From contig JBBHKE010000387.1 of NCBI GenBank assembly GCA_037447655.1, forward strand, positions 248,001-312,000: a DNA stretch of 64,000 bases, given 5' to 3'. The position numbers and the translations under genes were made by a program. Source of the stretch: Zygnema cylindricum (taxonomy: Eukaryota > Streptophyta > Zygnematophyceae > Zygnematales > Zygnemataceae). Position 1 is the stretch's first letter. Each line of letters starts with the position of its first letter. Positions 289-57,039 of this stretch are shown piece after piece. The notes under the pieces are model-generated. The model was not told where the DNA came from and did not search any database. It worked only from the letters and a program-made list of their open reading frames with translations.

Positions 289-797
289 ATGGCGACTCTC
301 AGCCATGTCACGTCTTCTCTCTCCTCCACATCTCTTACAACTCTCCAAACCAAATCCCTCTCCCTTCCTCATTCCTCTTTCCTCCCTTCCTCTCACTCTC
401 TCTCTCTCCCCTCTCTCACCTCCCTCTCCTCCTCTCACCTCTCTTTTTCAACCTCAGCCTCTCTTTCCAAAGACAGTCTCCCCTCAGCTTCCGGAACTCG
501 TTCAAAACGTGACGTCACGGCCATGGCTGTGGCAGTTCCCTCTCCAGAGACGAGAGAGAGAGAGGTGGAGGGGGTAGAGGGAGAGACTCCCCTTAACAAA
601 TATAGTTCAAGAATTACTCAGCCTAAGTCTCAAGGGGCCTCTCAGGCTATGTTGTACGGAGTGGGACTTACAGAGGAAGATATGAATAAACCACAAGTAA
701 GTCTTTTTCGCCTCTCTCTCTCTCTCTCTCTCTCCCCTCGTCTTTCTCTCTCCTCTCTCCTCTCTGTCTCGTACCTCCATCTCCTCCGTCTCCTCTT

Positions 798-829
<32 letters not shown>

Positions 830-3800
830 CCTCTTCTTTTTTTCCTGTCTTCTTTTATATGTACACTGTATTCCTCTCTCTTAAATACCATTTTATTTAT
901 CCGCTCTGTCTTCCACTTTCTTCATTTGCTCTCGCTCTCTCACATTCTGCGTCTCTCTCTCTCCCCCTTCATTTATGTCAGCACCCCTCTCCATTTTTCT
1001 ATAAAAACTTGACTCTGACAAAACAAACAAACAAAAGAAAAGGATAAAGTTTCCAAAATAGTTTTTATTTCCTTTATTTAGTTAGATTCTGCAAGGTGAC
1101 AAAATATAATATTAAGTTTTTGACTATCCCCCCTTTTTTGTTTGGAGCCTATTGACTTATTATTTTTTATTTTTTTCAGGTTAGTTTCATAATAATTAGA
1201 CATCAGAAATAATAGCTGGACAATAGAACTTATAATTAGACATAATTTCGTTTTTTCAAGTTGTATTTATGATGATTCACTAGGCATCATAATTAGATGT
1301 AATTTTATTTTTTCAAGTTACATATAATGGTTTAGCACTTTTAGGTGCATGTTTTAAAATTATACTTTTATCTGAAAACTTATTTGAAACTTAGAAACCG
1401 CAGTTCATGGTACAAAATTTATGTACTTTTGTAAGATAAAAAATTAAGAGACTTGCATACAACAATTTATCAAGTTGATATAATCAACTTGGTTAAATAT
1501 TGTTTTATTTGAATTTGTCGGTTAATGTTCCGTTGATTTTGCAATCAAGATATTTATTCTTACAATATCTTGAATAGCTCTAATTATTATTAAAATTTTG
1601 TCTATGGGGAACTTTTTTTTTTGTTTTTTGTGACATTGCCAATTTTGACATTTATAGCAATTTGTTTATTTATTTGAAATTTATGGCAATTTATGTCGAT
1701 TTGTTAAAGATTTTCAATTGTTAATGAAGTTTTGTCTATAAAGAATTTCCATTATCTCAGTGTTACGTTTATTGTGATATTATTTATTTTGACATTTTTA
1801 TTTTTGTCCACTTTTTTTTTGACATTTATTTTGGCATTTTATTGCCACTTTTATTTGACATGATATTATTTACTTTTTATAATGTATTGACACTTTTTTC
1901 TGCCACATTGTATGTTAGCAATATCTTATTTCAACAATCATTATTATTATTATTATGTTTTGTAAGTTAATGATTTATTAATGTTTAGATTTTATTTCTT
2001 ATCTTTCAATCTGTACTGATGTTACTTTAAGGAGGTCCTATTAAACAAACATTATTATGTTGTCGATTGATGTATATACAAATTAATGGTTCATTTCATT
2101 ACTTGGCCATTTAATTCTTTTCCGATGTTACTTTTCTTCCAGAATGTTTCTTGAAATGTTTGACACTTTTTTGACATTGTAGGCTAACGCTATCGTATTT
2201 TAACAAACATTATCATATTTTCTATTGTTTAATTCGATCCCTGTCTATTATATTAACGTTTCTCTGCTCTGGTCTATTACTTTTTCTTTTTCGATCTTTC
2301 TTTACTGACTTTTTTTCCTGAAATGTTTTTTGAGATGTTTCTTAAAATTATAAAATGTTTTTTTTTTTTTCAGGTGGGAGTTCTTCGGTTTAGCATGAGG
2401 GAAATACTTCGATTTTCTAATCTTACTGATGTTCCTTTTCTTGAAATGTTTCCTACATTGTTTTCTGAAACGTTTAAGATGTTTTTTTTTTTTTTTTTCA
2501 GGTGGGAGTTTCTTCGGTTTGGTATGAAGGAAACACTTGCAACATGCATCTTTTAAAATTGGCGGAAGTTATAAAGGAGGGAGTGAGAGAGGCAGGAATG
2601 GTCGGTTTTCGATTTAATACAATTGGAGTGAGTGATGGGATTTCTATGGGGACCGAAGGAATGTGTTACAGGTGAGATTTTTAAATCCTGGCTTTTAGTT
2701 TTGAGTTTTTATTTTTGAGATTTTAATTTTTAGTTTTAGTTATGGGTTTTGATTTGGGTTTTAGATCCGGGTTTTAATCTTGTACTTTTCTTTCTCTTTC
2801 GAACTTTAGGCTGTCAAGAAGTTAAGGAGGTTTGCCACTGGCTAGTTTTTTTGTTCTCCTTTTTCCCCCCTCCCTTTTTTTCCTTCCATCTTTCGCTTGT
2901 TCCTCCCTTAGATGATATCTTTCCTAAAATTTTATCCTTTTTCTGAAGAGAATGAGCTAGTTAGATTTCAAGGCCTCTTTTGCCTGCCATTTTTTTCTCT
3001 CCTTTGTCCTGGTCCTTTTTCCCGCAGACAAGAACGTCTTTGACATAAAAATCTTTTTTCTTTCTGGATGGAATGAGCTGGATAGTTGTCAATCTCATGA
3101 TTTAATTGCCCCTCCCCCTTTATCCCTCTTCTCTCTCTCCTTTCCTCTTTATTCGTCCACCATTTTCTCCTTTTCGCTACATCTCCTCTCTCCCTGCCCT
3201 TCTTCCTCTCCTTTTTCCCTCTTTGTTCTCCCTTAGACGGTATCTCGCCTAAATTTTTTTGAATGGGGTAGTTTACAGTCTCACGGTCTAACTGCCCCAC
3301 TTCCTCCTCCCTTCTCCGCTCTCTCCCTCCCATTAAATTCTTCCTTAGAATTTTTTTGTCTCTGGGGAGAATAAATTGTCTAGTTTGCATTCTCTCGCTT
3401 TCTCCCTCCTCCCCTCCCCTTTTTCCTTCTGTCCTTCTCTCCTTCCTCCTTTAGCATGTACCTCGCCTACAATTCTGTTTTTCTTTCTGGGGAGAACGAA
3501 TGGGGTATTTTGCAATCTCGTAGTCTAATTGCCTGTCTTCCTCCTCCCCTCTCCACTCTCTCTCCTCTCCTTCAAAAAACCTCCCTTAGACCATATCTTG
3601 CTGAATTTTTGTATTTTTTTCAGGGTAGAATGAGTGGGGTAGTTTAGAGTCTCGCGACTATTTCAGGGCCCTCTACTTCCTTCCCTCTCTGTTCTCTCCC
3701 TTCCCCTTTTTTCCTTCCATCTTTCTCTCCTTCCTCCCTTTATCTAGCCTAAACTTCTGTTTTTTTTTCTGGGGAGAATGATGGATTAGTTTACAGTCTC

Positions 3801-6800
3801 GCGACCTAATTGCAGACAGCATAGAAACCGTTATGGGGGCCCAATGGTACGACGCCAATATCTCCATTCCAGGATGCGACAAAAATGTAAGTAAAAATTC
3901 CTTACCTGCATTACGTACAAAAACAACAACAACGACGACGACTACAACAGTGTTAAAGATTATTTGGGGATATCGTAATCTATCCCCAAATGTAGTTTTT
4001 GTCTTTTTTTCTCAAAAGAGAATTGAAATGTACTTCACTAAGATCACAATATCCTGAAGTCACTTTCTTCAGATACGAAAAAACTAAGTTTCAGAAAGAT
4101 ACATTCTTTTCATGGCTGTATATGTGTATTGTATCGGTTTTTTTTCTAAAATCCTTACCAAATTTCTTTTTTCTCAAGAACATTGTAGCATAGAAGTTGA
4201 CACTTCATTTGCAAGTTCCTAATTCTCCCTCTCCCTCCTCCCTCTTCCTCTCTCCTCTCTCCTCTCACTCACGTCTCACTTCCCCCGTCCTCCTCTTCTT
4301 CCTCTCCCTCTTTTCTCTCCACTCCTCTGGTTACTCTTCCTCTCTCTCCTCACCTTTGCCTTTCTTCCTTTCCCTCTCTCGTCCCTCATTCGCAAGCTTA
4401 TCCTATCAGAAGTGGGAAATGAGGGCCTCATTTTTATCCTCTCTCTCCTCTCCTTGTCCTTGTCTTCCTTTCCCTCTCTCTGTCCTCTTTCTTCAGCAGT
4501 TTCTCGCATCTGAAGTGGGAAATGAGGGCCTTCCATTTTCATCCTCTCTCTCCTCTCCTTTTCCTTGTCTTCCTTCCCCTCCTTCTCTCCTCTTCCTTCA
4601 CCAGTTTCGCCTATCTGAAGTGGGAAACGATGGTCTTCCATTTTTGTACTTTTCCAGATGCCAGGTGTCGTTATGGCTATGGCTCGTTTGAATCGCCCGA
4701 GTTTGATGGTCTATGGAGGGACCATTAAGGTAAGAACACCACGGTTATTAGTGTGGAGTAAAATGGTTTTTTAATCCGAAAAGTTTTTTTTTGTGAAAAT
4801 GGAAAGCAGATGGAACTTAATAGGAGTTAATTTTCCTTTTGAAGCACAAATCTAAAGTTGGAGCAACTAGTATGATTCAAGATTGTGGGTTTTTGTCGAT
4901 TTGTTTAAATAGAGAGATTAAGGTGATGATCTACTCCTCCCTTTTTTAACATTTTTGTCCTTTTCTGGTTTCTTAATGAGTTCACAGCCAGGCTACTCCA
5001 ATGGGGCAACACTCGACATTGTCTCTGCATTCCAAGTAAGACAAAAATGTACTTTGTTGGACCAAACTGCATTTCATATGAGACAAAATATGTACTGTAC
5101 ACCATGACACTATATCGGCGCCCCTGAAATTTACCCCTCGAACCTAAAATAGTATCAATGGTACTAATTGTTTTTTTCTTAATGCTAATTCTTTAAACGA
5201 CTCAAAAACAGCCATGTCATTTGGAACTCAATTAGAATCAATAACACTAATGTAAACCCCACACTTATAATTTCTTTACCATAACAACAATCCACGTAGT
5301 ACTGAACTAAAAACCAAGCTACACTGTGACGTTATTATCGCTAAGAGATAATTAATAGGACTGTTTTAATGTTGATAAATATATTTCCGCTCCAATTGCC
5401 GTGATTGTGAACTTCAAGAAGAACTAGCGTCAAGAAAAAAACAGTTTGTATTAATGTCGCTATTTTGTGTTCAGGAGGCACAAAAGGCCGGGGCAAAATT
5501 AGTGTTACTAAGGCTAATAGCGATTGACAATGTAATAGACCTAAAATCGTGAACAGTGTTTGATGAACGAATCCGTACCATTTTGCAGAGCTATGGCCAA
5601 TATGTCGCGGGATCGATAACGGAAGCGGAGAGACAGGCCATTGTCAAACATTCTTGTCCCGGAGAGGGAGCTTGTGGAGGGATGTATACCGCAAATACTA
5701 TGGCATCTGCAATTGAGGCTCTTGGACTTACTCTTCCTTACAGGTATCTTCTAAACAAGAATGTCGAATATTTGGTAGTTGACTTGTTTTTTTCTTTCGC
5801 CTTCATGGATAGTCAAACAGGAATCGGAAAAAACAGGAATCGTTATTCATTTTGTGGAAAACTTGACTTACTGGTTTAGTTTCCGCCGGGTGTTTTACAT
5901 CTTTATCTGTTAATAATATTTTTTACGTTGATAAACTTGTGATATTACTTGTATATTACGGAATTTTTATAATTTACTCTTTTTTTGTAATTTTTATGGA
6001 TTCTTTACGGATTCTGTTGAACCGTAACCATAATGTCACGTACGACGGTGTACATTGGTATGTAGAAACAAGCGACAAAATCATACAGTTAGAAATAGGA
6101 ATTCATTTTTTTCCGTAATACAATGTTTTTTGAATGTTATCTTGAATGTTTTTGGAATCATATTGGAAGAGTTTGGGATTGGCTTTGGAATGGATTTTGA
6201 AGGTTTTTGAGTGTTTTTGGAGTTTTTTTGCAGTTCTTCGATTCCTGCAGAAGATCCATTGAAGGTGGAAGAATGTAAACTCGCGGGACGATATATTTTG
6301 GAACTTTTAAAAAATGATTTAAAACCGAGAGACATTATTACTCGAGCTTCGCTGGAAAATGCGATGGTGACAGTTGTCGCACTCGGAGGGTCTACAAATG
6401 CGGTTCTCCATCTCATTGCCATAGCTAGGTGAGAGAGAGAGAATTTTTTCTACTCACAAAAAACCAGTTTTTCCTGGTTTTTGGGCTCAAATTTTATTCT
6501 TTTTTAAATCAACACGATTGAACTTGACTCTACATTTTGTTACTGTTTCTTTTACTCACAAAAAACCATATTTTCCTGGTTTTTGTGCTCATTTTGTGCT
6601 TTTTTTTTTAGATCCGCGGGACTGAACTTGACTCTGGATGACTTTCAGCGAGTCAGCGATCGCGTCCCTTTCATCGCTGATTTGAAACCGAGTGGGAAAT
6701 ATGTCATGGAAGATGTTCACAAGGTGAGGGAGGGAAGGGAGGGAGGGAGGGAGGGGAGGGAGGGAGGGAGGGAGAAGGAGGGAGGGAGTATGAGTATGAT

Positions 6801-9800
6801 ATATGGAAATGTTAGGAAAAATAGACCATAATAGACTCATAATTGGTTACCAGAAAACATTATTAAGAAAAAAAAATATCGGATTGTGAACCATACTATA
6901 ACGGCTATTTATCAACATTTGTTGTTGAAGTATCACCTAATGGTTATGGCCGATTATGACCATACAACCTATGAATAATTTTTCATTTTTTATGTGAGAG
7001 TCGAAAATGTTCCTACTGTTGTTTGATTTAGGTTTTTGTTTGTTCAGATCAGGATTTCCTTAGTGTGCTTTTATGTTTTTTTAGGGTTTATCTGAAAAGG
7101 GTTTTTTGGTTATGGGGTATAAATGGGTTCAGGTTGGTGGTACTCCAGCTGTTCTTAAATACCTTTTGGAAAAAGGTCTTTTAGATGGAAGCTGTATGAC
7201 AGGTAGTTTCACACAACCTTTTCTTTTTCTTGGTTCTTTTTCTTTTTTTTGGTTCTTTTTCTTTTTCTTCTCCTTCTTCCTTTTTGTTTCCTTCCTTATT
7301 CGTGTGTTTTCTTTCAATTTTTCATTCTTTTCTCTTCATTTTCCTTCCTTTTCATTCCTTTTTCTTTTGCCTTTACTTTTATTTCCTTTCTTTCCACCTT
7401 TCCTTTCCTTTTTTCTTTCTTTTTCAATAAATTTGTGTCAAGAAAATGTTATAAGTTTCTTTTTCTTTTTCTTCTCGTTTTTTTTTTCTTTGTTTTTGCT
7501 TCTTCACCTGTAATATTTTCTCAAGAAATTTTAGTCGATTAAAATCTAAGGTTTCAGTTATTACAATGTGTTTTCAGTCAAATGTGTATTACTGTGACGT
7601 CTTTCTTAATAGTGGACTTGTTATGAAGTTTAAGCTTATTTCCAAAATATCTGAACTGTAAGTCAATCGATAAACAAAAAAAATAAAAAACTGATCTCTC
7701 CTTTTTTTTATTTATTTTGGGTGGGCAGTGACCGGAAAAACTTTGGCAGAAAATTTGGAAGGCTGCCCGGCCCTTTCAGACAAACAGGCGCGGAAATTTT
7801 TATTTTTAATTTGATTTGTTTATTTATTTGTTTATTTTATTTTTATTGCTATTTTCAATCAAATTATAATGTTCTCAAGCAAGTTCAGGAAGTCACACTT
7901 GTAAAATTTTCTTTTGGCAAAATTGTTTTGTAAAATAACCTCCTTTTAGAAATTTCACACGAATTGCTGGTGAAATTGTTTAGAAAAATATAAAATAACT
8001 TTGGTTTGGTTTTGAAATTAATTTATATTTTTTTTTGCACTTCGTAATTTTTTATTTTTTTTTAAGAAATTGATTTTACCTTTGGAAACACCGGTTAAAA
8101 TTACATCTCTCTCTCTTTCCTCTCTCTCACCCCCTTCTATCGGTCCTCTTTGTCTACTTCTCCCTCCTCTCTCTCGTCCTCTGGTATCTTAGGACTTACA
8201 TTGCTTTTCTTGTCATTTCTTGCAGGAAGTTATTTTGCCCTTAGAAGCTCCCATTAAAGCCACGGGGCATTTACAAACTCTTTACGGAAATTTAGCTCCG
8301 GAAGGCTCTGTAGCTAAAATTACCGGAAAAGATTCAGGCTTCCATTTCCTCCCTTATCTTCCCTCTTCCCCCTCCCTCTTCCCTCCCTCCTCTCCTCTCG
8401 TCTCCCTCTTCCCTCCTGCTCCTCCCTCCCCATCTCCCCCTCTCCCTCTTTTTCTATCTCGCTCCTCCTCCTCTCCCCTCCTCTCCCCTCCTCCTTTCCT
8501 CCTCTGCCCTCCACTCTCTCTCCCTCTCTCCTCCCCCCCCCTCTCCCCCTCTCCCTCTCTTCCTCTCTCTCTCTCTGTGTGTGTGTGTGGTGGACAATGC
8601 TGATATTTTGTCCTTCGTTTGTTTCTTTGTTTTTCTGTTTGCTTTTGGCTTTTTCTATATCAATAAACAGGTCAGCTCATTTTTGAGGAGAAAAATCAGC
8701 TCATGAAACACGAAAGTTTTAAGGTAGAGTGAGGAGAAACAACTGCAGGGAAAGGTAAGATCGAGAGAAAAAGGTGAGAGGGAAAAGGTGAGAGAGAGCA
8801 AGTAAAAAACCTGAAAAAAGAGAACAGTTGAGGGGAAGGAAAACCTGAAACAAGAGAAAATGGTGAGGGGGCAAATGGAGTGGCCGAAGAAAATCTTTCA
8901 AAATATTCTGGAAAGAAAATCGTTCAAGAGCTTTTAAAAAGGTTTTGAAATCCTTTAAGTTGCCTTTAAATGCCTTTATATTGTCTTTTTAAAGCCTTAA
9001 CATTGTCTTTTTAAAGCCTTTAAATGTTGATTTTTTGAAAAACTTGTCAGGAGTTCTGAAAAACTTTGAAAAGGATAGCAAATAATATTGCCAGGTGAAC
9101 CCTGTGGTGGTAATTCGAGGGAAGAGGGAGGGAAATCGAGGGAGAGGGAGGGAGGGATCTAAAGGATTATAAATCATATTGCCAGGTGGCGGTTTTTTAC
9201 AGGGCACTGTGGTGGTAATCCGAGGGGAGGGGCCCAAAGGGGGTCCAGGGATGCCCGAAATGTTGACTCCCACAAGTGCCATTATGGGGGCTGGACTTGG
9301 AAAGGTGAAAGAGAGTTTTTTTCTAGTTCCTTTTTCTCTTTAATTTATTTTATTATTGTTGAATATTACTTTGTTTCTTTTTCTTGTAGTGTTATTGACA
9401 GACAGTCTACACTATTTTGAAGAGCAGATTTTGTCTTTTTGTGACAGGAAGTCGCATTATTGACAGACGGCCGATTTTCGGGCGGCTCTCACGGATTCGT
9501 GGTGGGACATGTCTGTCCAGAGGCTCAGGTATTTTATTTTTATATTTTTTTATTTGTTTTTATGTATTCAAATTCGGTTTTTGCTTGTATCCTGTTTTTG
9601 TCTCTATTCAGTTGTTGTCTTCAATCAGTTTTTTTCCATATTCAGTTCTTGTCGTTGTTCATTTTTTTCTTATATTATGTCGTTATTTAGATTCGTGGTT
9701 TGACATGTCCGTCCAGAGGCTCAGAGACAAAACTTTACTTTTTTGTTTTTTTAAATGTAATAAAATGTGTTGTACACCATATTGAACTCAAAGCATACGT

Positions 9801-11252
9801 TGTATCATATCGTTCGCAAGGGAAATAAATTTAAAATAAAATAAAATGAAACAAAAATAAAATAAAACAAAAATAAAACAAATAATAATAATAATAATAA
9901 TAAAAAATTGTGATGCGTTTTCTATACGTAGAATTAATAAGAAATTTATTTGAGGACTGATTTAGTGTTAACCAGCTTTAACGACGTTTTACAACATTAT
10001 GTAACATAACTTTATGTGACGTTGTCAACATTGTATCGATGTGTAATATTAAACAACATTATCGATTTTATGCTTCATTATGCAGCATTATGAACATTAT
10101 AATTCATTATACAACATTATCAACATTATAGTTCATTATACAATCAACATTATACAACATTATGGTACATTATACAACATCATCAACATTATTAACATTA
10201 TACAACATTACCAACATTATGGTTCATTATACAACACCATTCAACATTATCAACATCATCAACATCATGGTTCATTATAAAACATTATCAACATTATCAA
10301 CATTATCAACATCATCAATATTATCAACATTATCAACATGACCAACATTATGGCTCATTATACAACATTATCAAAATTATTAAAACTATCAACATTATCA
10401 ACATTATCAACATTATCAACATCATCAACATTATCAACATTATCAACATTTTAGTTCATCATACAACATTATCAGCATTACAATTCATTATACAACACTA
10501 TCAACAAAACATAATGTTATCAACATTATAGTTCATTATACATTATCAACATTATACAACATTACCATCATCGTTCCAGCGTTATCCAACAACAGTTAAT
10601 ATTATTGTACTTTGTATAACTTAATAAGTTAAGAGTGTTTTTTGCAGGTCGGAGGTCCAATAGGCCTGGTTAAAAATGGAGACATCATCACTATTGATGT
10701 GGAGAAAAGAGCCATGAATATGGAGGTGTCAGAAGAGGAGTTAAAAAAGAGAAGAGAAGCTTGGACTGCTCCTCCTCTAAAGGCAACTCGGGGAACCCTT
10801 TATAAGGTACATTTTTTTTCTGACTAAATGTGCTGTTTTTTTGGGTTCTTTTGTTATCCTTTTTGTTATTTTTGTTATTTTAATATTCTTTTCTTATTCA
10901 TTTCTTAGTCTTATGTTCTTTCCTGATTCTGATTTTGATTGTGATTCGTATCCATTATTGTTATCCCTTTTGTTTTTGCTACCCATTTTGTTACCGTTAC
11001 TTTTTCTTTTTCTGGTTCTAGTTCTTATTCTGGTTTTGCTTCTTACCAGGTTTTCTTTTTTCACTATTTGTATTATTCGTCGCGTTGTTCTTTCTTGAAA
11101 ATGAGACGGGCACACATTTGATAAATTACCTTCTTTGTGATTTCTTTTATCGTCTAAATACATTTTTGTGTTTTTATGTGTGGTTTTTTTTATTTATGCA
11201 GTACATAAAACTGGTGAAATCTGCATCGGAAGGTTGTGTGACAGACGAATGA
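289..11252 (+). CDS. DHAD: Dihydroxy-acid dehydratase, plastid precursor, 16 exons
   Basis: Dihydroxy-acid dehydratase removes water from 2,3-dihydroxy acids in the valine, isoleucine and leucine pathway of the plastid. Exons: 289-696, 2502-2671, 3790-3886, 4658-4729, 4988-5035, 5589-5743, 6234-6428, 6612-6723, 7133-7202, 7729-7787, 8226-8337, 8671-8723, 9203-9304, 9448-9528, 10648-10806, 11202-11252. All join in frame to about 647 residues; plant enzymes are near 600. Residues 1 to about 100 are Ser/Leu-rich, fitting a transit peptide. Three [2Fe-2S] cysteines are visible: C149 (GNTCNMH), C222 (PGCDKN) and C294 ([12 protein letters not shown]). GRFSGGSHG lies at 559-567, and the C terminus is GCVTDE. 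Introns 10 and 11 seem to have GC donors. Exon 12 is short and diverged where the family has a GPALVFEGEE-like stretch, so a microexon may be missing there. Confidence 0.95.
697..2501 (+). other. DHAD intron 1, with an echo of exon 2
   Basis: The intron begins with CT microsatellite (about 706-760 and 798-835). It then becomes strongly AT-rich with irregular TTTGACATTT-like repetition. A diverged copy of the exon 2 acceptor and first 40 exon bases lies at 2371-2414, 128 bases before the real one at 2499. No other gene is seen. Confidence 0.6.
2371..2414 (+). repeat. Echo of DHAD exon 2 5' edge
   Basis: The segment starts CAGGTGGGAG and aligns with the real acceptor and exon start at 2499-2543. 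It has one single-base deletion and a handful of substitutions. The flanking GAAATGTTT...TTTTT sequence is duplicated too, so this is a tandem duplication with a period near 128 bases. The deletion breaks the reading frame, and the copy has no usable donor. Confidence 0.8.
2940..3825 (+). repeat. Degenerate tandem array echoing DHAD exon 3 acceptor region
   Basis: Six diverged units precede the real exon 3. Each has a CT-rich body, then CTCCCTTAGA..ATCTCGCCTAAA, then CTGGGGAGAATGA, then a copy of the exon edge (TAGTTTACAGTCTCGCGAC in the true copy). Copies of the edge are near 2949, 3070, 3261, 3369, 3495 and 3629. The functional one is 3776-3825. Spacing varies from about 90 to 190 bases. 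Several copies keep an AG at the acceptor position, so they are potential decoy splice sites. Confidence 0.75.
4385..4657 (+). repeat. Three-unit tandem repeat before DHAD exon 4
   Basis: The motif CTGAAGTGGGAAATGAGG followed by GCCTTCCATTTTCATCC-like sequence and a CT-rich body occurs three times, starting near 4399, 4511 and 4614. The period is about 105-112 bases. The third unit ends at the splice acceptor of exon 4. Confidence 0.75.
6450..6537 (+). repeat. Echo of DHAD exon 8 and its acceptor region
   Basis: TACTCACAAAAAACCA and the following polypyrimidine stretch recur about 102 bases later at 6553. The echo continues into TGAACTTGACTCT at 6519-6531, which is identical to exon 8 bases 6623-6635. 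The copy is otherwise diverged and lacks a clear acceptor. Confidence 0.75.
6724..7132 (+). other. DHAD intron 8, GA-rich microsatellite and AT-rich filler
   Basis: The intron starts with a GGGA/GGAG repeat at about 6730-6790. The rest is AT-rich and nothing else was recognised. Confidence 0.5.
8064..8105 (+). repeat. Echo of DHAD exon 11 5' edge
   Basis: Forty-two bases align without gaps to the acceptor and first codons of exon 11 (8223-8264), with about 27 matches. Translated in the same frame the copy reads [13 protein letters not shown] against [13 protein letters not shown] in the real exon, so the protein is conserved better than the DNA. An AG precedes it, but no donor follows before CT-rich repeat. 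It could be an old duplicate or a dead alternative exon. Confidence 0.6.
9084..9130 (+). repeat. Echo of DHAD exon 13 5' edge
   Basis: The stretch AATATTGCCAGGTG then CTGTGGTGGTAATTCGAGGG matches 9176-9235, where the real acceptor and exon 13 lie. The copy has lost about 18 bases that include the polypyrimidine tract and acceptor. Confidence 0.75.
9383..9410 (+). repeat. Echo of DHAD exon 14 5' edge
   Basis: TTATTGACAGAC preceded by TGTAGTG resembles the acceptor and start of exon 14 (9443-9471, CAGGAAGTCGCATTATTGAC). It lies about 60 bases upstream of the real copy. Confidence 0.6.
9689..9724 (+). repeat. Echo of DHAD exon 14 3' edge
   Basis: This 36-base segment matches exon 14 bases 9493-9528 with four mismatches, including the terminal CAGAGGCTCAG. 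After the copy comes AGACAA rather than a GT donor, so it is not spliceable. Exon 14 thus has echoes on both sides. Confidence 0.85.
10040..10625 (+). repeat. CAACATTAT minisatellite in DHAD intron 14
   Basis: About 580 bases are built from CAACATTAT and CATTATACAACATTAT units, with interspersed GGTTCATTATACAAC. The unit length is 9 with higher-order variants of about 30-40 bases. It gives an open frame full of His, Tyr and Asn, which is an artefact of the repeat. Confidence 0.9.
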
Positions 11253-13062: not shown

Positions 13063-13849
13063 AGGCTGCGGCCCCATGTAGTTGTAACTTAGCGTACTTA
13101 TTTTGTATTTTAGCGCGGATCCGGCGGACCCGGATTTCAAGTGTCTCTATGTGTTCATTCGAAATTGTTACTTAAGTTTGTGACAATTGTATACGTCGAC
13201 AGCGCCCGTGACGGCTGTCACCGTATACAATTTGTGATGACGCACCATATTTTTTTGTAACTTTTTGAAGTGTCGCCAGACACATCGTACTTTTTGAAAC
13301 GATTTGCGGATTTGGTATGTCGCGTGTCTTTGCGTGACATCGTTGACGTAGATCCTTGCACCCGTGGCTGTGCAAAATGCCTTGCGTAAACCTCTCCCGT
13401 CCGGCCGCCATTACTTCGCAGATTTTTCACGTTCGCAGACTTTTCAACTTTGCGTGAAATGACACTGCAGCGTCGAGACCCCTGAAAAAAAAGAACCGTA
13501 CAACATGCAAGCCGACAAAAACAAACAAACCTTGTACTTTTTTTTATCGTCAAAAACTTCTAAAATCTTTTCACACGTGGGAATATATTTTCAGATTGGT
13601 GTAGACGGATTTGCTTAGCTTAAAACACATTGCCGATGTGTTTTATGATAATTTTGAAAATGACGTGACAGTGGGTCGAAAAAACGCAACACGACAAATT
13701 TTCGTACATCCTAAGTTCAAGAATGACGCAAATTGTACTCTACAAATTTGCAATTTCTTCGTACGGTCGCAACTTAGGCAGTACGGCGCTAAGTTATATA
13801 GGAAAACGACAGAAAAAAACCCGAACTTAGCCACATGGGGCCGCAGCCT
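13063..13849. mobile_element. Non-autonomous DNA transposon with 17-bp perfect inverted ends
   Basis: AGGCTGCGGCCCCATGT starts at 13063, and its exact reverse complement ends at 13849. The inverted similarity weakens but continues inward (GTTGTAACTTAG against GGCTAAGTTCGG). The 787-base interior has only short frames without domains, so the element is MITE-like. I cannot define a target-site duplication, and the superfamily is uncertain (hAT-like by size and end type). Confidence 0.7.
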
Positions 13850-14917
13850 TATGCGAACGGCTTTTTTTCGATGTGATTGATTTTTTTGTTTGGTGCAATT
13901 TCACGTGCGAGCGCGATTCTATTAAATCATTATTTGTACCTTTTTATTTATAAAAATACAATTTTGCACGGTCAGACGTTGTGTACACTAATTCCGTCCC
14001 GCTTTTTTTTTGTTTTATTCTCAAATAGCGTAGTTTATTCTATTAATTCTTTATTCTATTTAGGGTTTTTTTCAGTACGTTGTCTGTTAAATAGAGTGGT
14101 GTACGGTACGTGTTAAACCGTACATAAATGTACCTTTTTGAGTTAAAAAGTACAATAAATTAATTTTAGTAACCGCGGACGCATGAGAATGTGCGTTCTA
14201 AAAAGGAAAAAAAACCTGGTCGTAAAAAATCCCGCTCGCACATATTCGTCCGACAGCCGCGTTTCGACCGTGTGAATGTACGATTTGTGTACGATTTGTC
14301 AGATTTTGTACGGATACTTATGTTAGTGTAAGCATGTTTGCGACCGATTTTTTTTTTTCAAAGATCCAAATTACCATAATCAAACAATTAGAATGTATGA
14401 TTTTTTCCAAAATTTTCAAATTCTTAAATAGCGTACACCACGGTAATTATTTTTATACGCTAATCAAACTTCTACGCTAATAGCGATTGGCGGTGTAGCG
14501 TTTGCAATTTTGAACGTCCGCGTTTTTTAGTTTGCTAAAAAATTTCGTCCGGCGGCGTGATCTTACGTCAGATTCGGACGTTCGTACAGGAGTGTGCACG
14601 ACGCACACACATACAGTGCCTCCTCTACGCGAGTTTTGTGCAAAGTTTTGTGCGGCCACCAAAGGCCTACCATAAAAAAGCCTACTTTTGAACTATGGTT
14701 TGTAACAACAATTGAAATCGCCAATTTTTTTTGGTCGAAAATCATACATCATCGTTGGCAACGCTATTTAGGGGAGTGGACTACAACTTGCCACGTATCC
14801 AAAAACTAATTTAGTGACGATTTGTTTTTACGGTCGTATTAAAGATTTTTTGCAACTAAAAGGAAAACCGTAATTTGTCGTCGCTATTTGTGTGCATTTC
14901 CGTACATAGCCGTGTGA
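13850..14917. other. Gene-free stretch upstream of the DUF7918-like gene
   Basis: Mixed AT-rich sequence with scattered GTACGG/CCGTAC words that recur in other repeat-rich parts of the window. No gene or defined element could be supported. Confidence 0.4.
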
Positions 14918-14933
14918 ACCCGCCCTCCCCCTC

Positions 14934-15003
<70 letters not shown>

Positions 15004-15140
15004 GCTCTCTTGCTCTCTCTCCCTTCCCCGCACTCTCCCTCTCTCTATCCCTCACTCTCCCTCTCCCTCTCCCTCGCTCTCCCGCTCTCTCTCTCTCCCT
15101 CTCCCTCTCTCTCTCCCTCTCCCTCTCCCTTCCTTTCTCT
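14918..15140 (+). repeat. (CT)n / CCCTCT tract directly upstream of a start codon
   Basis: More than 200 bases of nearly pure pyrimidine, including about 60 bases of uninterrupted CT at 14936-15000. It ends ten bases before the ATG at 15150. Like the tract before DHAD, it may form a 5' leader or promoter element. It also produces long Ser/Leu and Arg/Glu frames that are not genes. Confidence 0.85.
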
Positions 15141-15149
15141 GCTGTCACC

Positions 15150-17820
15150 ATGGTCATAGCACATAACGGCCGAGAAAAGTTCGAAGTCAAAGTGACCGAC
15201 AGTCATAAAGTGGAATTTCCTCAAATTTCACACAACGGTGTGACATATGTCACAGCTGAGCCTAATGCAGCATTCGAAGTTCATGTGAGACTTTTACATG
15301 ATGGCAATTCCGTTTCAGTGGTTGGACTCAGGTCAGTTGCATTACTTTGTTCGGCAAATCCTAATCTATGGATGCGTCAAACCCTAATCTATGGATGCGG
15401 CAAACCCTAATCTATGGATGCGCAAACCCTAATCTATGGATACGTCAAACCCTAATATATGGATGCGTCAAACCCTAATATATGGATACGTCAAACCCTA
15501 ATCTACGGATGCTTCTTTCTTTTCTGTTTATAGCCTTTGTCTGGTTGTCAATCTGTGAAGCCGGAAGGTATCACATGTATGCAAACTACATATGGTTATT
15601 GCAAACAACGGATTAAAAGGTTAACTATTAAGTCAACTCTTGAAAATATAATACCGCAACGGTGATAGGAATTTAGTAAATAAATGTTGTTATTTAGAAT
15701 ATAGAACAATAATAGTTGTATTGCTTATACAAGAAGATAATGCACTCGTAGTTTTTCTATATGATGATAAAATGCTCTGGTGCATAGAGAGAACCTTTCC
15801 GTTATTCTAAGAACCACAGGAACGATGAAATCCGTAAATATACTGATTTGAAGGCCGTATCCCTTCAAACATTAGAAACTGCCTAATTGTGTTCTAACGC
15901 GGCGAGATTTGCTTTATAGAGCAAATTCTACAGCAAATAACGGTTCAAATTTGTAAATTGTGTGTATCCTTACTGTTAAATCATATCCGATTGCTGTGCG
16001 TCGGTTACTTTAGTTTCACTGATATTTCACCAAAGAGTTGGGAATTTTTTGTGTTTTATTCATCAGTTTCCTAAATGCTACAAGATTGTGTTAAAGGTCA
16101 TGTTTGAAAAACATTCAAACGGCTTAATTCAGTCTTGCAATTTGTTTGCAAGTGTCCTCTTTTTTTTTAACTCCATTCCGTTTAATTCGGAACAATACAT
16201 GTTTTGTGATGCTCTTGTCTGCAATGTTGTTTTCTTTCTTATTGTTTTTTTGGTTCCGTTTTTGCAGTGTTGATGGAGTATGTGCTGGTAGCAGCATCCG
16301 TCTTCATAGAAAAGAGATTTGGCGTCGATTTAAGGGGTTCCATGTGAACTCAAAGGAAAAAAGACAGTTTGTGTTTTCTAGTCCTAACTATGGTTTGCCT
16401 CGACTCTTCATGCACTCATTTTTTTTGAGCATGTTTTATACCCTACCATTTGTTCTTTTGTGGGATAAGGTTGTTATGCCTTGTAATTCTTGTGCTTATG
16501 GATTCAACACACGTGTGTCCTGAACTCATTTCAAACTTTTTGCATCAAAACCTCCTTTTTTGACACCTGGCATTACGGAGGGATGGCCAGGTGCCGCTGG
16601 GGGAGAGGTTGATGGTGGCAGAGAAACCCAGGTTGGGAAATTGGAAATCTATATTTTGCCAGCTGAGTTTCAAGCTTGTCCAGGAGCCAACTGTAACTGG
16701 TGCAAATTTCATGGTCATGGCGATCCGACCGTACCCTATGAAGACTCCCCAGGACAACATAAGGTACGACACATTATCCATCGCAGATTGACATTATTTG
16801 AAGGGGTTTATGATTACGCTCCAAGAGATCTTGTCCTGGTTCAAAATCAAGACAAAAATGATAACGATGTGTCTGGTGTTGTTTCTGTTCTTTATTTAAA
16901 CAGGAACCAGCGGAGCTAAACCAAAACGATGATAAGAAGTTCTTTTTGGCCCCAAGTCTCTCGGTTAAAGCAGGTCCCACTATTTATCGAACTCTTTCAA
17001 AAAAGGAGAAAATGGTGCGCTCATTCACTTTTGACAATATTTTCACTTATAGCTATGTCCATGTGCTTTCGGCAGTTGTTCAATCTTGACATCACAAGGT
17101 TGCTTATTCATATTGATTTTGTAAAGGTGCAGTAAGCTTTTTGTCAAGATGTTTGTCCAGCCAATTTTGCATGCTTCACGTTTTATAATGTCTAAAGGTC
17201 AAGTCTAAATTTTCTTTGCATTTTTTGTGCCAAACAGCATCCTATAGTTCTTCGAAATGCCAAACATTTCTCGATTTTCCTCCAATGTGAGACAGTAGAG
17301 ACTCTTAGATTGAGAAACATTTTGCCTCGACAAAACGTTACGCTAAATGCTGGATGTCATAATTATGGCGAAGAACGAACGGATCATGGACGCCAAAAAG
17401 TTAGGTCTGAAGGTGAGTATGTTTTATTAATGTACGCCTAGCTTGACTTTAGTCATGCTCCATTATGTGCATATGTATGATTGGGTCCATTGTAGAATTC
17501 AACAAAATTGTTTATACCCATCTAGCATATCCCAAAATGCAACATGTCTTGAAATCTTCAGTGAGTGGCTTTTTTAGAGGATTTTTTTATAGTTAAAATT
17601 GTCAAATTCTTTCTTGAAAGTAACATATGGCTATTTGGAAGCGACAGGGACGGTTGGGACAGTGAAGAGAGAAAGGACAACCAATACCGCTTCTTCAAGT
17701 GGTGGAAGGGGTGGCGAAGGCTCGTCTGATATTATTGATCTTACCGAGGATGATGCATCAGATGATATGCTCATTTGGAAAGTCATCAAATGTCCAAAGC
17801 GAGAGGTAGTTTCTTTGTGA
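15150..17820 (+). CDS. DUF7918-like protein with C-terminal SUMO-interaction-like motif
   Basis: Exons: 15150-15331, 16268-16392, 16591-16763, 16904-17014, 17238-17412, and 17621-17820 (the last could start at 17648). All phases agree, giving 312-321 residues. The ATG has a good context (CACCATGG). The N-terminal half reads like the fungal and protist DUF7918 fold. YVTAEPNAAFEVHV is followed by VDGVCAGSS, then RFKGFHV..KRQFVFSS, then a GKLEIYIL strand. A Cys/His patch (CPGANCNWCKFHGHGD) lies in exon 3. The tail has Gly/Ser-rich linkers and SSDIIDLTEDD, a classic hydrophobic-acidic SUMO-binding motif. Function is unknown and a nuclear role is inferred. The family call rests on remembered sequence pattern and is moderate. 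Confidence 0.7.
15356..15515 (+). repeat. Seven tandem 23-bp units carrying AAACCCTAA telo-box
   Basis: The unit AAACCCTAATCTATGGATGC plus GTC repeats seven times, with one-base variants, in intron 1 of the DUF7918-like gene. Most units hold AAACCCTAA, the plant telo-box and telomere-like word. Spacing is 22-23 bases, about two helical turns. Confidence 0.9.
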
Positions 17821-17844
17821 GATTCTCCATTTCGCAAGAGAGCA

Positions 17845-18320
17845 TGTATTATGGAGGGAAGCATAAGCAAGAATCCAAACTTTGGACGAAAACATAAACG
17901 CGAATTAAGTTTTCGGAGGGAAGAATAATCAAGAATATTTGGGTGAAAGCATAAACGAGAATCGAGTCTTTGGAGGGAAGTGTAAAGCAAGAATCTAAAC
18001 TCTGAAAAAAAAAAGTATAAACCAGGCTCCAGTCTTCGGGAAGCATAAGCGAGAATCAAGGCTTTGGCGGGAATGAGAAGGGAGAATATGCACTATGGAG
18101 GGAAGCAATAATGTAAACGTTGGAGCCAAAAATATGTAAGAATCCAAACGTCGAAAGGTGGATAAGGTGGTGTTTGTGAGCAAAAATATAGACTTTAGAT
18201 GAAAGTATGGAATATATTAGGTTTGAAAGGAAGCATAAGCAAAAATTTAGATTTTTAAGGCAAATGTTGTAGCAAGAATTTAGACTTTAAATGAAAGCAC
18301 AAGCAATTCATCAAATTTCT
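17845..18320 (+). repeat. Degenerate minisatellite, unit about 35-40 bp
   Basis: The phrase GGAGGGAAGCATAAGCAAGA followed by ATCCAAACTTTGG-like sequence repeats about a dozen times with decay. It lies just after the stop codon of the DUF7918-like gene, probably overlapping its 3' UTR. Confidence 0.8.
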
Positions 18321-20260
18321 GGAGGGAAGAATACGTCTTTGTCCTTGAGAACTTAGATGTTGTCCTTTCATGCACCCAATATTAGGAATAAGAAAGGAAG
18401 TGTGTAAGCGAGAAGAGGTTGGGGGCATTTTCAATAAGATAGGAATAAGATCGGTTAACGATGGTTGGTGTTCTTTTCCCATTGTAGCGGATTGCGTTGT
18501 AAGTTACATTTGTATCATTTTGTGTATGATTTTGCCCGAGATGCAATTGTGCCTGCTGGTTCAAGTGGAGTACACCATCAAATGACAGGTTTCTCATACA
18601 CTCCTTCCTTGCCCTCAGTCCGAGGTCTTTGAAGCCCTCGGGTTGACTTTGTTTTCCTCCATGGTGTTGGGAGGATCCTTAGTGATGTGGTCTTCTCATA
18701 TCTGACTGTGACATGTTTTTTCTCATGCGACATTGTAAATGGGTGTGGCAGCCCGAGAAACGGTGGTTAATAAGGGAGGAGATTATGCTCACCGAGATTC
18801 GATGGAGATTTTCGGATCATTGGACAAGACGACTTCTTTAGTGATTGTGATCGATTTTTTTTTTAATCCAAGGGTCTGTGGAGTCTGTCACCAAGGTTTC
18901 TAGCTGCTTTCTACAGTCAACGTTATCGGTTTGCGGGCCCTTCTTTGACGAAGTACTATGGCAGATGGTAGGTGGGCCCTTCTAAAAATTCCGCCAAGAG
19001 ATCTGGTCCACATCGACGACTTTCACGGTTGTCGACTTTTTGTCAAAGTTGTTGGTAGTCATATAGTGTATGTTTCTACTTCTTGTGCGTTCAAAATTGT
19101 TTTACAATGGGACCACTTACTATCAACTAAAAGAGCATTTGATCTTTTTACAATATTGGATTTTATTGCTGTGCGATATACGTCCTCCACACTTAGTTGG
19201 GTTTGTTTATGGTATGTGTGGCGCCTGGGAATTGGTGCATTAATGCCTCGACTCTTGTCTCTCGTTTTTTGGTTGGGGATACTCCATTACTTGCTTCCAT
19301 TGTCCTTCGTGTTTCGGACGCTGTCTTCGCCTTCCAACAGTCTATTTTGTTCCATTCCTCCTCTCTCCTTTGCAGATATCATTACGAAGCTAGTTGCGCG
19401 TGTGCAATAAAAAATATTGGTCAGTTGTCGCCACCATTTGATCTGAGCTTCTCAAGACATTTTCCCTTTTATTGTTCAAGCGCCTGCTTTCTCCCTTGCA
19501 GTGGGTATAGTTTCGAAGTTTGCCCACTGGCTACACCTATTCTCTCCACTATATGTTTCACACCTTCTCAATTCACCACCGCCACCTTTACTTCTCGTTT
19601 ACTCATGAGGTCGTGTCCTTGCGCCATATGGCGTCCATTTGCTTCGTTGCTCTCATGGGGGAGAGTTGAATTCGCGGCGGATTGATATTGGATTGCTTGA
19701 TGGTGCCTATCGTATATTTGGTGACATTGTTTCGGCAAACCTTGCCTCGGATGCAATCGTTGGTCGTTTCTCCGTACTTGCGGTTGCGCGACTCTTTTGA
19801 GAGAAAGGGGACTTGGGAGCCTCCCTGCTTCAACCCTTTCTTCTTTCGTTCCTTTCTTCTTTTATCGTCAACATTTATTCCATGGATTTACAATTGTGGA
19901 AAATTCTATCATCCTTCAATCGGCTATTATTGTCATGGACTGTCCACGTGTTTCGAAACTTCCTTGGCATGCCCCTCCCAGCTTGGGTTGGTTTAAGGTG
20001 TTGCTTTAAGTAAATCTTTCGCCCTGTTTTGGTTTGGTTGGGTAGTGCTCGTTTAGGTGACCTATTTCGGTGTTGCTTTTGTGATTGTTGCTTCTTCGAG
20101 AGTCTTGGTCGACTCGCCTTTTGTCTACATGTTAGTTTCTTTCAGAATCCTTTTTCGGTTCGTGCAAGTTTTTCAGTTTCAATTTTCGGGATCCCGTGTT
20201 TCTTAGGTGGTTTACCATCGCGCTTTCCTAATTATTATTTTTTATCTTGAAAATACATCC
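18321..20260 (+). mobile_element. Decayed repeat with hairpin-plus-T 3' end (possible LINE relic)
   Basis: No intact gene. The segment near 18960-19040 (CCGCCAAGAGATCTGGTCCA...CATCGACGA) resembles 25870-25925. The stretch ends at GGTGGTTTACCATCGCGCTTT (20206 on), a short hairpin followed by T-rich sequence that recurs at three other places in this window. Shared 3' hairpins are typical of non-LTR retrotransposon families. No reverse-transcriptase motif is visible, so this is tentative. Confidence 0.35.
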
Positions 20261-21729
20261 TTTGCTTTGTGACAATGAAATATCCATGTTACTTTTGTTG
20301 ATTGTGTAGGCTGTTTTGAAGTCTTTCTCAAACTAGTTGTCTTAAAATTTGTGCAACGAAGTGACTTCATTGAACCCACTAGAAAAATAACTTACTTCGT
20401 GAAAGCATGTGTTGTTAAGATGTCATTGGAACCATGTACTTGGGTAAAGTGTAGCAAAAGTTTTCACTTTTTATCCTTTTTTTTTGTTTTATTTTGTTTT
20501 TTGGAATGCTCTGATTTCTTTTGTCCATTCAGTTTTCCGTCGTGTACTTGGTAAATACGACCACAGAGTCCTACGACTTCTTTTTCCCGTTCAGTTTTGT
20601 TTTTTGGTATGTACTTGATTCCCTTTGTTTCAAACTTTCAGTGTACCAATCATAGACATAACTACAGATTTTGTGGATGAGGCTCTTGTGAGTAGACTTT
20701 ATTCCTAAATATTAATCTTTATATTCTACTGTTTTTGCCTATAAAGAGGTTGCGAACCTTGGAACGTTTGAAATGTAGTTCTGTCCAGGCACCTGGCACA
20801 AAGCTTCAATGGCAGTTCTAGTTGCCGAAACGCAGAAACGCGCAAGCACGTAAACACGCTAACGCGCCTCTTTACGCCCTCAAATTGTAACTGAATGAAC
20901 GTCTGACTCTATTGTAACTGCCGAGATTACACGCGAACATGTACGAACTAAATTATTGTACGATCCTACAATGCCGTATGACAGTTCGCACTAAAAGAAA
21001 GTACGAAAATATCATACGAGATCGATGGCGTCGGGCTTTTCGATGGTCTTACCATCGCGTTTTTGGAAATAAAATTCTATTATTTTTCCAGTTGCAACAA
21101 GCGTTCGAACGTTTAGACAAAAATGTGATTTCGTGCGTCGGAAGAGAATGTTACTGTACGGTCGGGTACATGGATGCAGCGGAAAAAAAATTCGCAAGTA
21201 GGTATCGAGTATCGACCGATGCGCTCAGTTAATTTCCCTCTGGTAATGATCGTACAAAAAACTCGTATTATATGAAAGAGATGTTCAAACTAAATAGAAT
21301 AGCTTGAAAACTTTTTGTAATTGACTAAACTGTATTATAGAATTTTTGCGCTATGGTTCACAATATGAGGAAAAATTGGGATAGTGAAAATTCAGTGCGG
21401 TAATCAGTGAGAAAGCGCACTAAAAGTTTACTTATCCGTACTCATCGCACGGTTTGTGGATTTCTGCGAACCTCGCACTGAATGTCCGCACGGTCTGTAC
21501 GGAAATGACACTTCCTCCAGGAAAAATTGTACACCAAAAATTGAAGTGTGGACATTGCAAAAAAATTTATTCTGTTTAAAATTTACGACAAGTTTAGTTC
21601 TACAATTCCCCTCAACCCTAAAAGCTCCCTTTCCCCTAATTTTCGCTCGTTCTCACCCTTGGTTTTGACACGTGTAATGTTTAATTTCTGCTTTTTAAGT
21701 AACTCCGTGTTCACACGTGCGAACCGGAA
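20261..21729 (+). other. Gene-free stretch upstream of uL29m, with a second hairpin end
   Basis: Mostly unique-looking sequence. A hairpin CGATGGTCTTACCATCG lies at 21041-21057, followed by CGTTTTTGGAAATAAAA, matching the 3' end type seen at 20206. Nothing else could be assigned. Confidence 0.4.
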
Positions 21730-24063
21730 ATGCTGTCACGTCTCCTTAGACGTCCTTTGACGTCTGTTTTTGGCGCCGTACGGCCTGTCAGAGGTGTGGA
21801 GGAATTTTTTGAAGCTCGGGCAGAGCCCGGGCAGACAGGTAAAAAAACTTGTGAAACTTGTATTTTTATGTATTCTTTATGTATATATTTTATATTTGAT
21901 TTTTTTTTATGTTTGTGGAAACAATAAATTAGAGGTGGTGGACTATTTCATCCTCAGTAATTTTGGTTTAAATCACAAAATAGTGCTGGTTTTAGGTTTT
22001 TTTTTTTATTTTAAGGTTTGTATTGGATTAGGGTTTAGAATATTAGGGTTTTTAGGGTCATGGTTTAAATTATTAGGTCTTGGATCACTATTAGGGTTGA
22101 AAGTCTAGATTTTTAGGGTTTGGAGGATTATATTATTATCAGGGTCTAGATTGTTAGGGTTTATATTGTTGGGATTTAGACTAATCATGAAAGTAAATCG
22201 ATAGTTTGATTATTTTTAGGGGTTTCTGAATTTTTTGGTTGATTTTTTTTATAATTTAGAGAGAGAATTTGGGTTCTTTGGGCAGCAAAAAATAGACTTT
22301 GGAAAAGCAACTTGTTTCTCACACTAAGAGAGGGAGAGGGAGGGTGGGAGAGAGTAGATGGAGAGGGAGAGGGAGTGGGGGAGGGGAAGAGAGGAGAAGA
22401 GAGGAAGAAGGGAGACGAGGAAGGAGGAAGGGGGAAGGGAGGGGGGACGGCATTTCTTTTTCACACTATGAGAGGGAGAGGGAGGGGAAGCTGGAAAGAG
22501 ATTTTCTCTTCCCCCTTTTCTTCTACCTATCCCTCTCTCTCCCTCTTCTTTTCCCTCTCCCTATTCCTCTCCCTCTCATTCCTGTTTCAAAGTAAACCCT
22601 AAAAAACTCTCAGAAACTCTCAATAACTCTCAAACCCTAAACCTCCAAAACCCTAAGGAAAAAGCCCCCCATAAACCCTTATAATAATAATGGGACCTCA
22701 GGTCGGTCTTGGGAGGCGTGGGAACTTCCTCCCTCTCTCCCTGCTTCCTTTTTACAGCTTCCCCACTCCCTCTCCCTCTTCTTCTCCCTCTCCCACCCTC
22801 TCCCTCCCTCTCCCTCTCCCCCATAAACCCTTACAATAATAATGGGGCCGCAGGTCGGCCTTGGGAGGCGTGGGAACTTCGACAAAAGAGCTTTTCTGAT
22901 CTCCACAAATTATGGTATGTTTTGTTGAAGGAGAAAAATCTCCTTTATTCTCAAAAAGAGCTCATGAGATCGACGGGAATAAAAATGCAAGAACCTCACA
23001 GGATAATGAAGGTATGTCTTTTTTTTTTTTGCTTTTTCTGTCGCTATTTCTTTTTATTTGTATTAATGTGCATTTTTATGTTTTTTATATTTTTGTTTGT
23101 TTTTTTTTTTTTGTGGGCTGATATTAATGTGGTCTTTTATTGAGAGTGTTGAGTTCTTTTTTGGGAATTGTATTCTCAACTGCCTTTATGTTTTTTATAA
23201 ATCATTGGAAAGAATTTCATCCACCAATTTTAAATATTTTTTCGGAAGAAATCGTTTTTTTGGATTACAAGTTTTCACATCTCCAAAAATGTATGAATGT
23301 ATTTGAAATTATGTGTGGATTTGAATTAATAATCTTTATGCTTATTATACCTCTTTTCTTTTTATTTTATAGGTTGACTAGTATAACATAGGGACATATT
23401 AAACAAGAATATTTTTTGGCTTTTTTTTATCCTTTGGTGTTAAAGAAAAGGTCAGTCGGGTGAAAATCAAAAAGCATTGACAGGATTTTTTTTTCTTTTT
23501 TTCAGGTTAGAAAATCGATGTGTTGAATGAGAGTAAAAATAAACAAACAAATCGGAAACTAATTATAATAATTGCTAGAACAAGTTTTATTTTTGCAGGT
23601 AGAAAATCTGTGTGTCGAATTAGAGTAAAAAAATAAAAAATTGTATTCACGGAAAATAAAATTGTTTCGCAGGCTTGAACGTTGTCGAATAAGACATAGG
23701 AAGTATTGTTTTTGACATTTTTTTTTTGTTTTTTTTTGGAGGTTAAAGTCGATGTGTCGAATCAGAGTAAAAAAAATGGCTTTTTTTTGGATGGAACATA
23801 AATTTGTTTGCAGGTTACTGAATCGATGTTGTCGAATAAAACGATAAGAAATTATTTTCTGACATGTTTTTCCTTTCTTTTGTTGCTGGTTAGAAAATTG
23901 ATGTGTCAAATAAAACGATAAGAAAATAAATTTTTTTGACACTTTTTTTTTGCAGGTTAGAAAATCGATGTGTCGAATAAAACAAGTTCTTACGGAACGA
24001 GCTTTGGCCGAAACCGACCCCGGAAAGCAATTTGCTTATAAAAAACTTATTAATGATATGTGA
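21730..24063 (+). CDS. uL29m: Mitochondrial large-subunit ribosomal protein uL29m (MRP-L47 family)
   Basis: Exons: 21730-21838, 22854-23011, 23956-24063, joining in frame to 124 residues. It is a structural protein of the mitochondrial large ribosomal subunit near the exit tunnel. The N terminus MLSRLLRRPLTSVFGAVRPV is basic and amphipathic, as in a mitochondrial presequence. It is followed by VEEFFE, then the family core GRPWEAWELRQKSFSDLHKL and WYVLLKEKNLL. The C-terminal exon gives VRKSMCRIKQVLTERA and ends KKLINDM. Plant homologues are slightly longer (about 140 residues). Both introns contain copies of the downstream exon edge. The first intron also has degenerate TTAGGG-type repetition at about 22010-22170. 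Confidence 0.93.
22010..22175 (+). repeat. Irregular TTAGGGTTT-rich stretch in uL29m intron 1
   Basis: TTAGGGTTT and close variants occur about nine times at irregular spacing. This is the reverse orientation of the AAACCCTAA boxes at 15356. It resembles degraded interstitial telomere-like sequence. Confidence 0.6.
22668..22728 (+). repeat. Echo of uL29m exon 2 and its splice acceptor (93% identical)
   Basis: Sixty-one bases match 22820-22880 with four substitutions and no gaps. The copy holds the CCATAAACCCTTATAATAAT leader, an intact CAG acceptor and 27 bases of exon. It is 152 bases upstream of the real copy. After it comes CTCCCTCTCT pyrimidine repeat instead of the rest of the exon. Confidence 0.9.
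23501..23925 (+). repeat. Five degenerate echoes of uL29m exon 3 5' edge
   Basis: Copies of GCAGGTTAGAAAATCGATGT followed by GTCGAATAAAA start near 23501, 23595, 23738, 23811 and 23885. They precede the true exon at 23951. Spacing is about 65-145 bases. Several retain a plausible polypyrimidine-CAG acceptor. All lack the remainder of the exon and have no GT donor in frame. Confidence 0.85.
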
Positions 24064-24092
24064 TCATTCGGGTACAAATGGGGTTAAAAAAA

Positions 24093-24270
24093 AAACTTAA
24101 AGCAATATGTGATCATCGAGGGACAATCGGGTTTTTGGATAGAACCTTGTTAACGAGATTTAGTCATTGGGGGACAATTGAGTTTTCAAAGTGGATTTTA
24201 TTAATAAGGATTTTATTAATAAGGATTTTATTAATGACATGTGATCATTGGGGGGCAAATGGGGTTTAAG
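24093..24270 (+). repeat. Three echoes of uL29m 3' end and stop region
   Basis: The true end reads TTATTAATGATATGTGATCA followed by TTCGGG, then ACAAATGGGGTT. Diverged copies follow near 24093, 24143 and 24222, the last being TTATTAATGACATGTGATCA with GGGGCAAATGGGGTTT. They lie in the 3' UTR or flank. Confidence 0.75.
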
Positions 24271-56842: not shown

Positions 56843-57039
56843 TAATTTGGAATGGTGTCATTTTGCCCTCTTAAACCTGGCTTTAAGATCCGTCATATTT
56901 TAAATTTCGTTGTAATCACCTTAAATTTTGATCGTCTATTCGTCATGGGTTCTGGCGTTCGCTGATATTATTTCTGTTTTATTAGTTATATTTATTTAAA
57001 AATTATTAAAATAAATTGCAAAAACATTTCCACCAGCAC

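Follow-up and report, generated by a model that had tools for sequence, protein, structure and literature searches.

Do exon edges provoke the duplications that seem to repeat them inside adjacent introns, or do such repeats reflect local tandem duplication that reaches exon borders and intron interiors alike? The question is raised by a 64-kb window, by which we mean the whole stretch of DNA analysed (bases 248001-312000 of C301, one of the 2689 contigs that make up a 352.8-Mb assembly). A sequence-only reading had reported diverged copies (echoes) of exon edges at nine borders of two genes in this window, DHAD and uL29m.

Gene models in the window

The four genes modelled in the window are as follows.

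289-11252, plus strand: DHAD (dihydroxy-acid dehydratase) gene, 16 exons, spliced frame open, 647 aa
21730-24063, plus strand: uL29m (mitochondrial ribosomal protein L47/uL29) gene, 3 exons, spliced frame open
27193-36225: third modelled gene, nine exons, frame open
48413-55670: fourth modelled gene, seven exons, frame open

The DHAD protein carries the Pfam domains ILVD_EDD_N and ILV_EDD_C, and the uL29m product matches Pfam MRP-L47. The best 120 of 8000 scored candidate relatives of DHAD are nearly all streptophyte where named; among the matches listed, identity reaches 80% in Closterium, 80% in Sphagnum, 76-78% in Riccia and 73% in Chara, and is 92% to the assembled protein P0002. The DNA is most naturally read as that of a streptophyte green alga. 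In the gene at 48413, which was included in the counts, the exon 2 acceptor is uncertain and does not lie at an AG. A candidate gene at 15150-17806 was left out of the border and array counts because its frame is not open. Ab initio exon calling in the window was also tried; at the loosest threshold, 27/40 plus-strand calls overlapped known internal exons and 13 calls lay on the minus strand. Of the known exons, 15/27 were exact, with a caller trained on the same genes; these calls were rejected as a source of introns.

Duplicated exon edges at the named borders

To assess the echoes, the adjacent intron was searched over at most 500 bp for copies of each 60-bp border window, with 60 dinucleotide shuffles of each as the control. 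With 31 acceptors and 31 donors of the four modelled genes tested in the window, the cut-off score of 36 was reached at 5/31 acceptors (DHAD exons 2, 3 and 13, uL29m exons 2 and 3) and 1/31 donors (DHAD exon 14). The echoes are listed below with their scores and the highest score among the shuffles.

2319-2538, plus strand: DHAD exon 2 acceptor and echo (exon start 2502; echo 2319-2409, about 128 bp upstream); score 77, top shuffle 29
2900-3813, plus strand: DHAD exon 3 acceptor and up to six upstream copies (exon start 3790); score 43, top shuffle 20
6458-6635, plus strand: DHAD exon 8 acceptor and echo (exon start 6612; echo 6458-6531); score 35, top shuffle 26
9070-9231, plus strand: DHAD exon 13 acceptor region and echo (exon start 9203; echo 9070-9128); score 37, top shuffle 27
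9494-9753, plus strand: DHAD exon 14 donor edge and echo (exon end 9528; echo 9690-9753); score 55, top shuffle 28
22666-22880, plus strand: uL29m exon 2 acceptor and echo (exon start 22854; echo 22666-22728, offset 152); score 77, top shuffle 22
23485-23983, plus strand: uL29m exon 3 acceptor and six upstream copies (exon start 23956; spacing about 67-93 bp); score 58, top shuffle 25

The duplicated exon edges are mostly real. Seven of the nine named echoes were upheld: those of DHAD exons 2, 3, 8 and 13, the DHAD exon 14 donor and uL29m exons 2 and 3. They are clear at five of the nine borders and weaker at DHAD exons 8 and 13, where the score exceeded all 60 shuffles. At the acceptors of DHAD exons 11 and 14, scores of 21 and 24 were matched by 8/60 and 2/60 shuffles, respectively, and are not clearly beyond chance. 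Within the two multi-copy sets, the most distant of the six DHAD exon 3 copies is poor and was placed by eye, and the third upstream copy of uL29m exon 3 is also poor.

The alignments show that intron edge and exon edge were mostly duplicated together and in direct order, the exon part amounting to 14-37 columns. Echoes of exon starts sit in the acceptor-side part of the intron with the intron edge attached; in the 1.8-kb intron before DHAD exon 2, for instance, 1.6 kb precede the start of the echo. The distance to a single copy is approximately 100-200 bp; in the two multi-copy sets, copies reach back several hundred bases.

Borders compared with intron interiors

Are borders duplicated more often than the rest of the intron? 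To get beyond genes picked for their echoes, we located chaperonin (Cpn60/TCP-1) exons in the same assembly, and the comparison set comprised nine such loci together with the four genes of the window. The chaperonin loci contributed 46/63 profile matches (loci L031, L036 and L037 remained outside the counts), of which 32/46 acceptors (matrix score >3) and 33/46 donors (>4) were kept, all having a target of 60 bp or more. Their splice sites were chosen near match ends, so that some may be several bases off, the L030 donor probably among them, and an intron called between matches that are not neighbours may contain unseen exons.

Scores of at least 36 were obtained in 76/562 intron-internal tests in the four window genes, in 15/754 tests of windows between the modelled genes of the 64-kb window and, in the chaperonin loci, in 4/65 border windows vs 56/1485 internal windows. 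After pooling, a nearby copy was found for 10/127 border windows and 132/2047 windows inside introns (P 0.46 by Fisher's test, with a Mantel-Haenszel odds ratio of 0.89). Borders are thus duplicated at a rate like that of the intron interior, and the claim that they are duplicated more often does not survive the count that the sequence-only reading had itself named as decisive. The ratio was 6/34 to 44/280 in DHAD and uL29m and 4/93 to 88/1767 in the other genes; by border type, copies were found for 6/63 acceptors and 4/64 donors. Exon interiors are nearly free of such copies: 2/188 tests were positive, both from a single window in the CT-rich DHAD leader that was tested on both sides.

Internal windows with a copy numbered 75/879 within 300 bp of a border, 35/547 at 300-600 bp and 22/621 at 600 bp or more, the last class being diluted by long chaperonin introns with unseen exons. 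On the acceptor side they numbered 29/278, vs 19/374 on the donor side. A mild bias of repeats toward intron ends is possible.

Because internal windows are not independent, one array filling several of them, the arrays themselves were tallied as well. The test covered 54 introns (31 from the window and 23 from chaperonin genes, the latter being only those whose exons are adjacent in the profile), with a total length of 40.7 kb and a mean of approximately 0.75 kb. Borders are crossed by 7 of the 29 arrays, at an acceptor in 5 cases and at a donor in 2, and uniform placement predicts 6.36 (sd 2.17). With introns of this mean length and units largely of 60-250 bp, approximately one-fifth of arrays should meet a border by chance, and the premise that random duplication would rarely be centred on borders fails. 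The proposal that exon edges seed duplication finds no more support in the arrays than in the window counts, and a special border mechanism is not supported. No array lay wholly within the 12.3 kb of flanking exon.

In DHAD and uL29m, 5/10 arrays are at borders, where uniform placement predicts 2.49; the main setting gives P 0.073, and the printed P values of the 20 settings run from 0.000 to 0.247. In the unpicked genes, the figures are 2/19 vs 3.87 expected, with P from 0.49 to 0.99 over the 20 settings. For all introns, P ranged from 0.006 to 0.859 and was below 0.05 in 2/20 settings (0.010 and 0.006), in both of which exon overlap had been capped at 60 bp. An excess limited to the picked genes is the pattern expected from choosing genes by their echoes, and there may also be a local effect within DHAD and uL29m. 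Border arrays were found in chaperonin genes on other contigs too; the donor border arrays of L030 and L035 fell outside the array test (far intron end unmodelled) and inside the window counts.

Local tandem duplication as a probable general process

The repeats of the window are predominantly direct and short in range. Direct repeats of at least 32 bits numbered 79 at offsets below 500 bp and 0-4 in every other 500-bp bin below 10 kb, and inverted repeats numbered 10. The intronic copies lie head to tail in direct order at short spacing, as in a minisatellite-like intronic tandem array. Between two haplotype-like chaperonin loci, the one pair compared and one with few arrays, no difference in arrays was seen. 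Over C301:1-200000, 432/6542 window tests reached 36, very unevenly distributed, vs 3/3271 in a shuffled control that permutes letters rather than dinucleotides. Direct repeats of at least 45 bits in this region numbered 45 under 500 bp and 19, 17 and 12 in the next bins, with 10 inverted; strong repeats are less concentrated at short range here than in the window. The segment C301:20001-30000 is very repeat-dense, 48% of its window tests matching a copy at most 500 bp away.

Two further duplications in the window are located as follows.

24047-24266, plus strand: duplication of the uL29m stop codon and 3' UTR (24047-24085 and 24228-24266; 90% over 39 bp, offset 181)
56771-57253, plus strand: tandem tRNA-Met pair (genes 56771-56842 and 57040-57111)

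The former concerns a coding border and not a splice site. In the latter, the gene is 97% identical over 76 bp and the flank, which has decayed, 79% over 75 bp, the same asymmetry as that of exon edges.

These observations are probably best explained by local tandem duplication that is tolerated in introns and purged from exons, with constrained edges recognisable for longer. Short tandem duplications, with units mostly of approximately 60-250 bp, would arise repeatedly in this genome and would later diverge. A block crossing a splice border would yield a head-to-tail repeat of intron edge plus exon edge, in which the frame is preserved only by the copy still attached to the remaining exon. 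The extra copies would therefore become part of the intron, on the upstream side of an acceptor or the downstream side of a donor. The last acceptor, or the first donor, would then presumably be the one used in RNA. Border events, presumably nearly neutral, would persist about as often as intron-internal ones, and exon-internal events would be removed. Replication slippage, unequal exchange or templated end joining could supply the duplications. Thus, a simple mechanism, duplication even over introns and borders and filtered by selection, would replace the suspected special one, and growth of introns by tandem duplication is plausible.

Divergence of the copies

Under this duplication-and-selection account, the constancy of the original's exon half should leave a border copy recognisable, as the earlier reading had also suggested. 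In the exon part of three arrays, which have four to seven copies each, echo-to-functional and echo-to-echo identities were 0.768 and 0.637, 0.653 and 0.517, and 0.720 and 0.672, so that the functional edge is the nearest to the echoes in each. In the intron part, the corresponding values were 0.422 and 0.391, 0.610 and 0.478, and 0.505 and 0.555; in the DHAD array, the functional copy is nearest to the echoes in the exon part and the intron part alike. The suggestion is thus supported in part: the arrays fit it, but in the pooled alignments substitutions differ little between exon (54/404 columns) and intron (76/489), a comparison that is weak because local alignment picks similar stretches. 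Gap columns numbered 7 in exon vs 38 in intron. The pooled columns exclude the DHAD exon 14 acceptor row, a self-alignment, and include DHAD exon 11, which is at chance level, and the third uL29m copy, whose match is a T-rich intron stretch only.

Duplicated acceptors and splice-site choice

The AG is kept in 11/15 modelled acceptor echoes (the start of the most distant DHAD exon 3 echo may be one base off, and its AG is perhaps kept), and use of any of the 15/15 is predicted to introduce a premature stop. The acceptor of uL29m intron 2 exists in seven near-copies, the last of which is the functional one, and 5/6 upstream copies keep the AG. Two of the six echoes score 21.3 and 20.1 vs 18.0 for the functional acceptor, on a matrix built on at most 31 sites from the same genes, which makes the scores rough. 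If the last uL29m copy is cleanly spliced, the alga might, as a tentative reading of the sequence, choose acceptors by exon definition and not by the first good AG. Were this true, recurrent tandem duplication would provide a natural series of decoys testing acceptor choice across many genes. More generally, a genome whose introns apparently grow by tandem duplication offers graded series of duplicated splice sites, natural material on how the spliceosome chooses among near-identical acceptors.

Alternative explanations

It could be argued that exon borders promote duplication, for example through stalling of replication at the polypyrimidine tracts or RNA-DNA hybrids of acceptors. The border excess in DHAD and uL29m and the mild acceptor-side skew of internal repeats are consistent with this, as are the end-biased repeats described for other plants and algae in PMC3887541. 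We nevertheless consider it unlikely: the unpicked genes have no excess of border arrays, the window counts of every pooled set lack one, and donors are copied as well as acceptors.

The copies might instead be retained for function, in regulated alternative splicing or as poison exons tuning expression, to which the kept AGs and the premature stops predicted on use would lend themselves. Judged from sequence, this seems more doubtful again, since 11/15 is near a neutral expectation that we estimate at ~0.72 for ~15% divergence per site, premature stops are expected from intron sequence anyway, and most introns tested have no border copy. An assembly artefact in low-complexity introns is the least credible of the three and very improbable. 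The window does contain low-complexity tracts and 571 N, and the DHAD exon 11-12 region appears damaged; yet the divergence of most copies runs from several per cent to a third, beyond read errors, and similar arrays occur on other contigs. Moreover, two chaperonin loci, L032 (C2488:5900-11500) and L037 (C315:104000-108700), which are either haplotypes or a recent duplication, are colinear at 98.6% identity, although this is one pair only, at a locus with few arrays. Local duplication filtered by selection thus remains the preferred explanation.

Relation to known systems

Gao and Lynch reportedly found, in 2009, that internal duplication of gene segments is frequent. The present case is similar in that gene segments are duplicated internally and differs in that only an exon edge (~14-37 aligned columns) is copied, which gives no usable exon; duplication of a whole exon with both splice sites, as in mutually exclusive exons, was not found among these echoes. 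Introner-like elements are a source of intron sequence in some algae and consist of dispersed copies of one element. In contrast, an echo matches its own gene only: when edges were compared with wrong introns, among the four window genes only, the cut-off of 36 was reached in 1/310 tests, and no sequence family common to many introns was found in these tests.

In their survey of 31 plants and algae, Zhao et al. 2013 (PMC3887541) describe repeats with 1-50-bp units concentrated near intron ends. Our arrays resemble these intronic tandem repeats, which are dense in green algae, in their head-to-tail arrangement; unlike them, they have units mostly of 60-250 bp, and some include an exon edge. According to the potato RdRp report (PMC4974935), a local tandem duplication within a gene copied a splice site with intron and exon edge, and an 83-bp duplication within an intron is also mentioned. 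The splice site is likewise copied here together with both edges; unlike in potato, the copy lies inside an existing intron, no new intron is formed and the exon count stays the same. Among the titles and abstract openings of a partial literature set, border-spanning duplication did not appear as a general route of intron growth, the related work comprising surveys of repeats and studies of tandem duplication as a source of new introns.

Other features of the window

The window gave no match in phage and viral collections. The DHAD exon 11-12 region (8338-8723) is without the conserved stretch GLYFSGPARVFEGEE, which is present in P0002, and enters a CT-rich tract; the assembly is at fault here or the gene is damaged. 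In the gene model, DHAD exons 10 and 11 have GC donors. Telomere-like AACCCTAA/TTAGGG motifs were seen by eye within introns at 15354-15512 and 22021-22660, partly in a 23-bp array. On the minus strand, an open frame at 44256-44747 has a CCHC-like knuckle and appears, by eye, retroelement-like.
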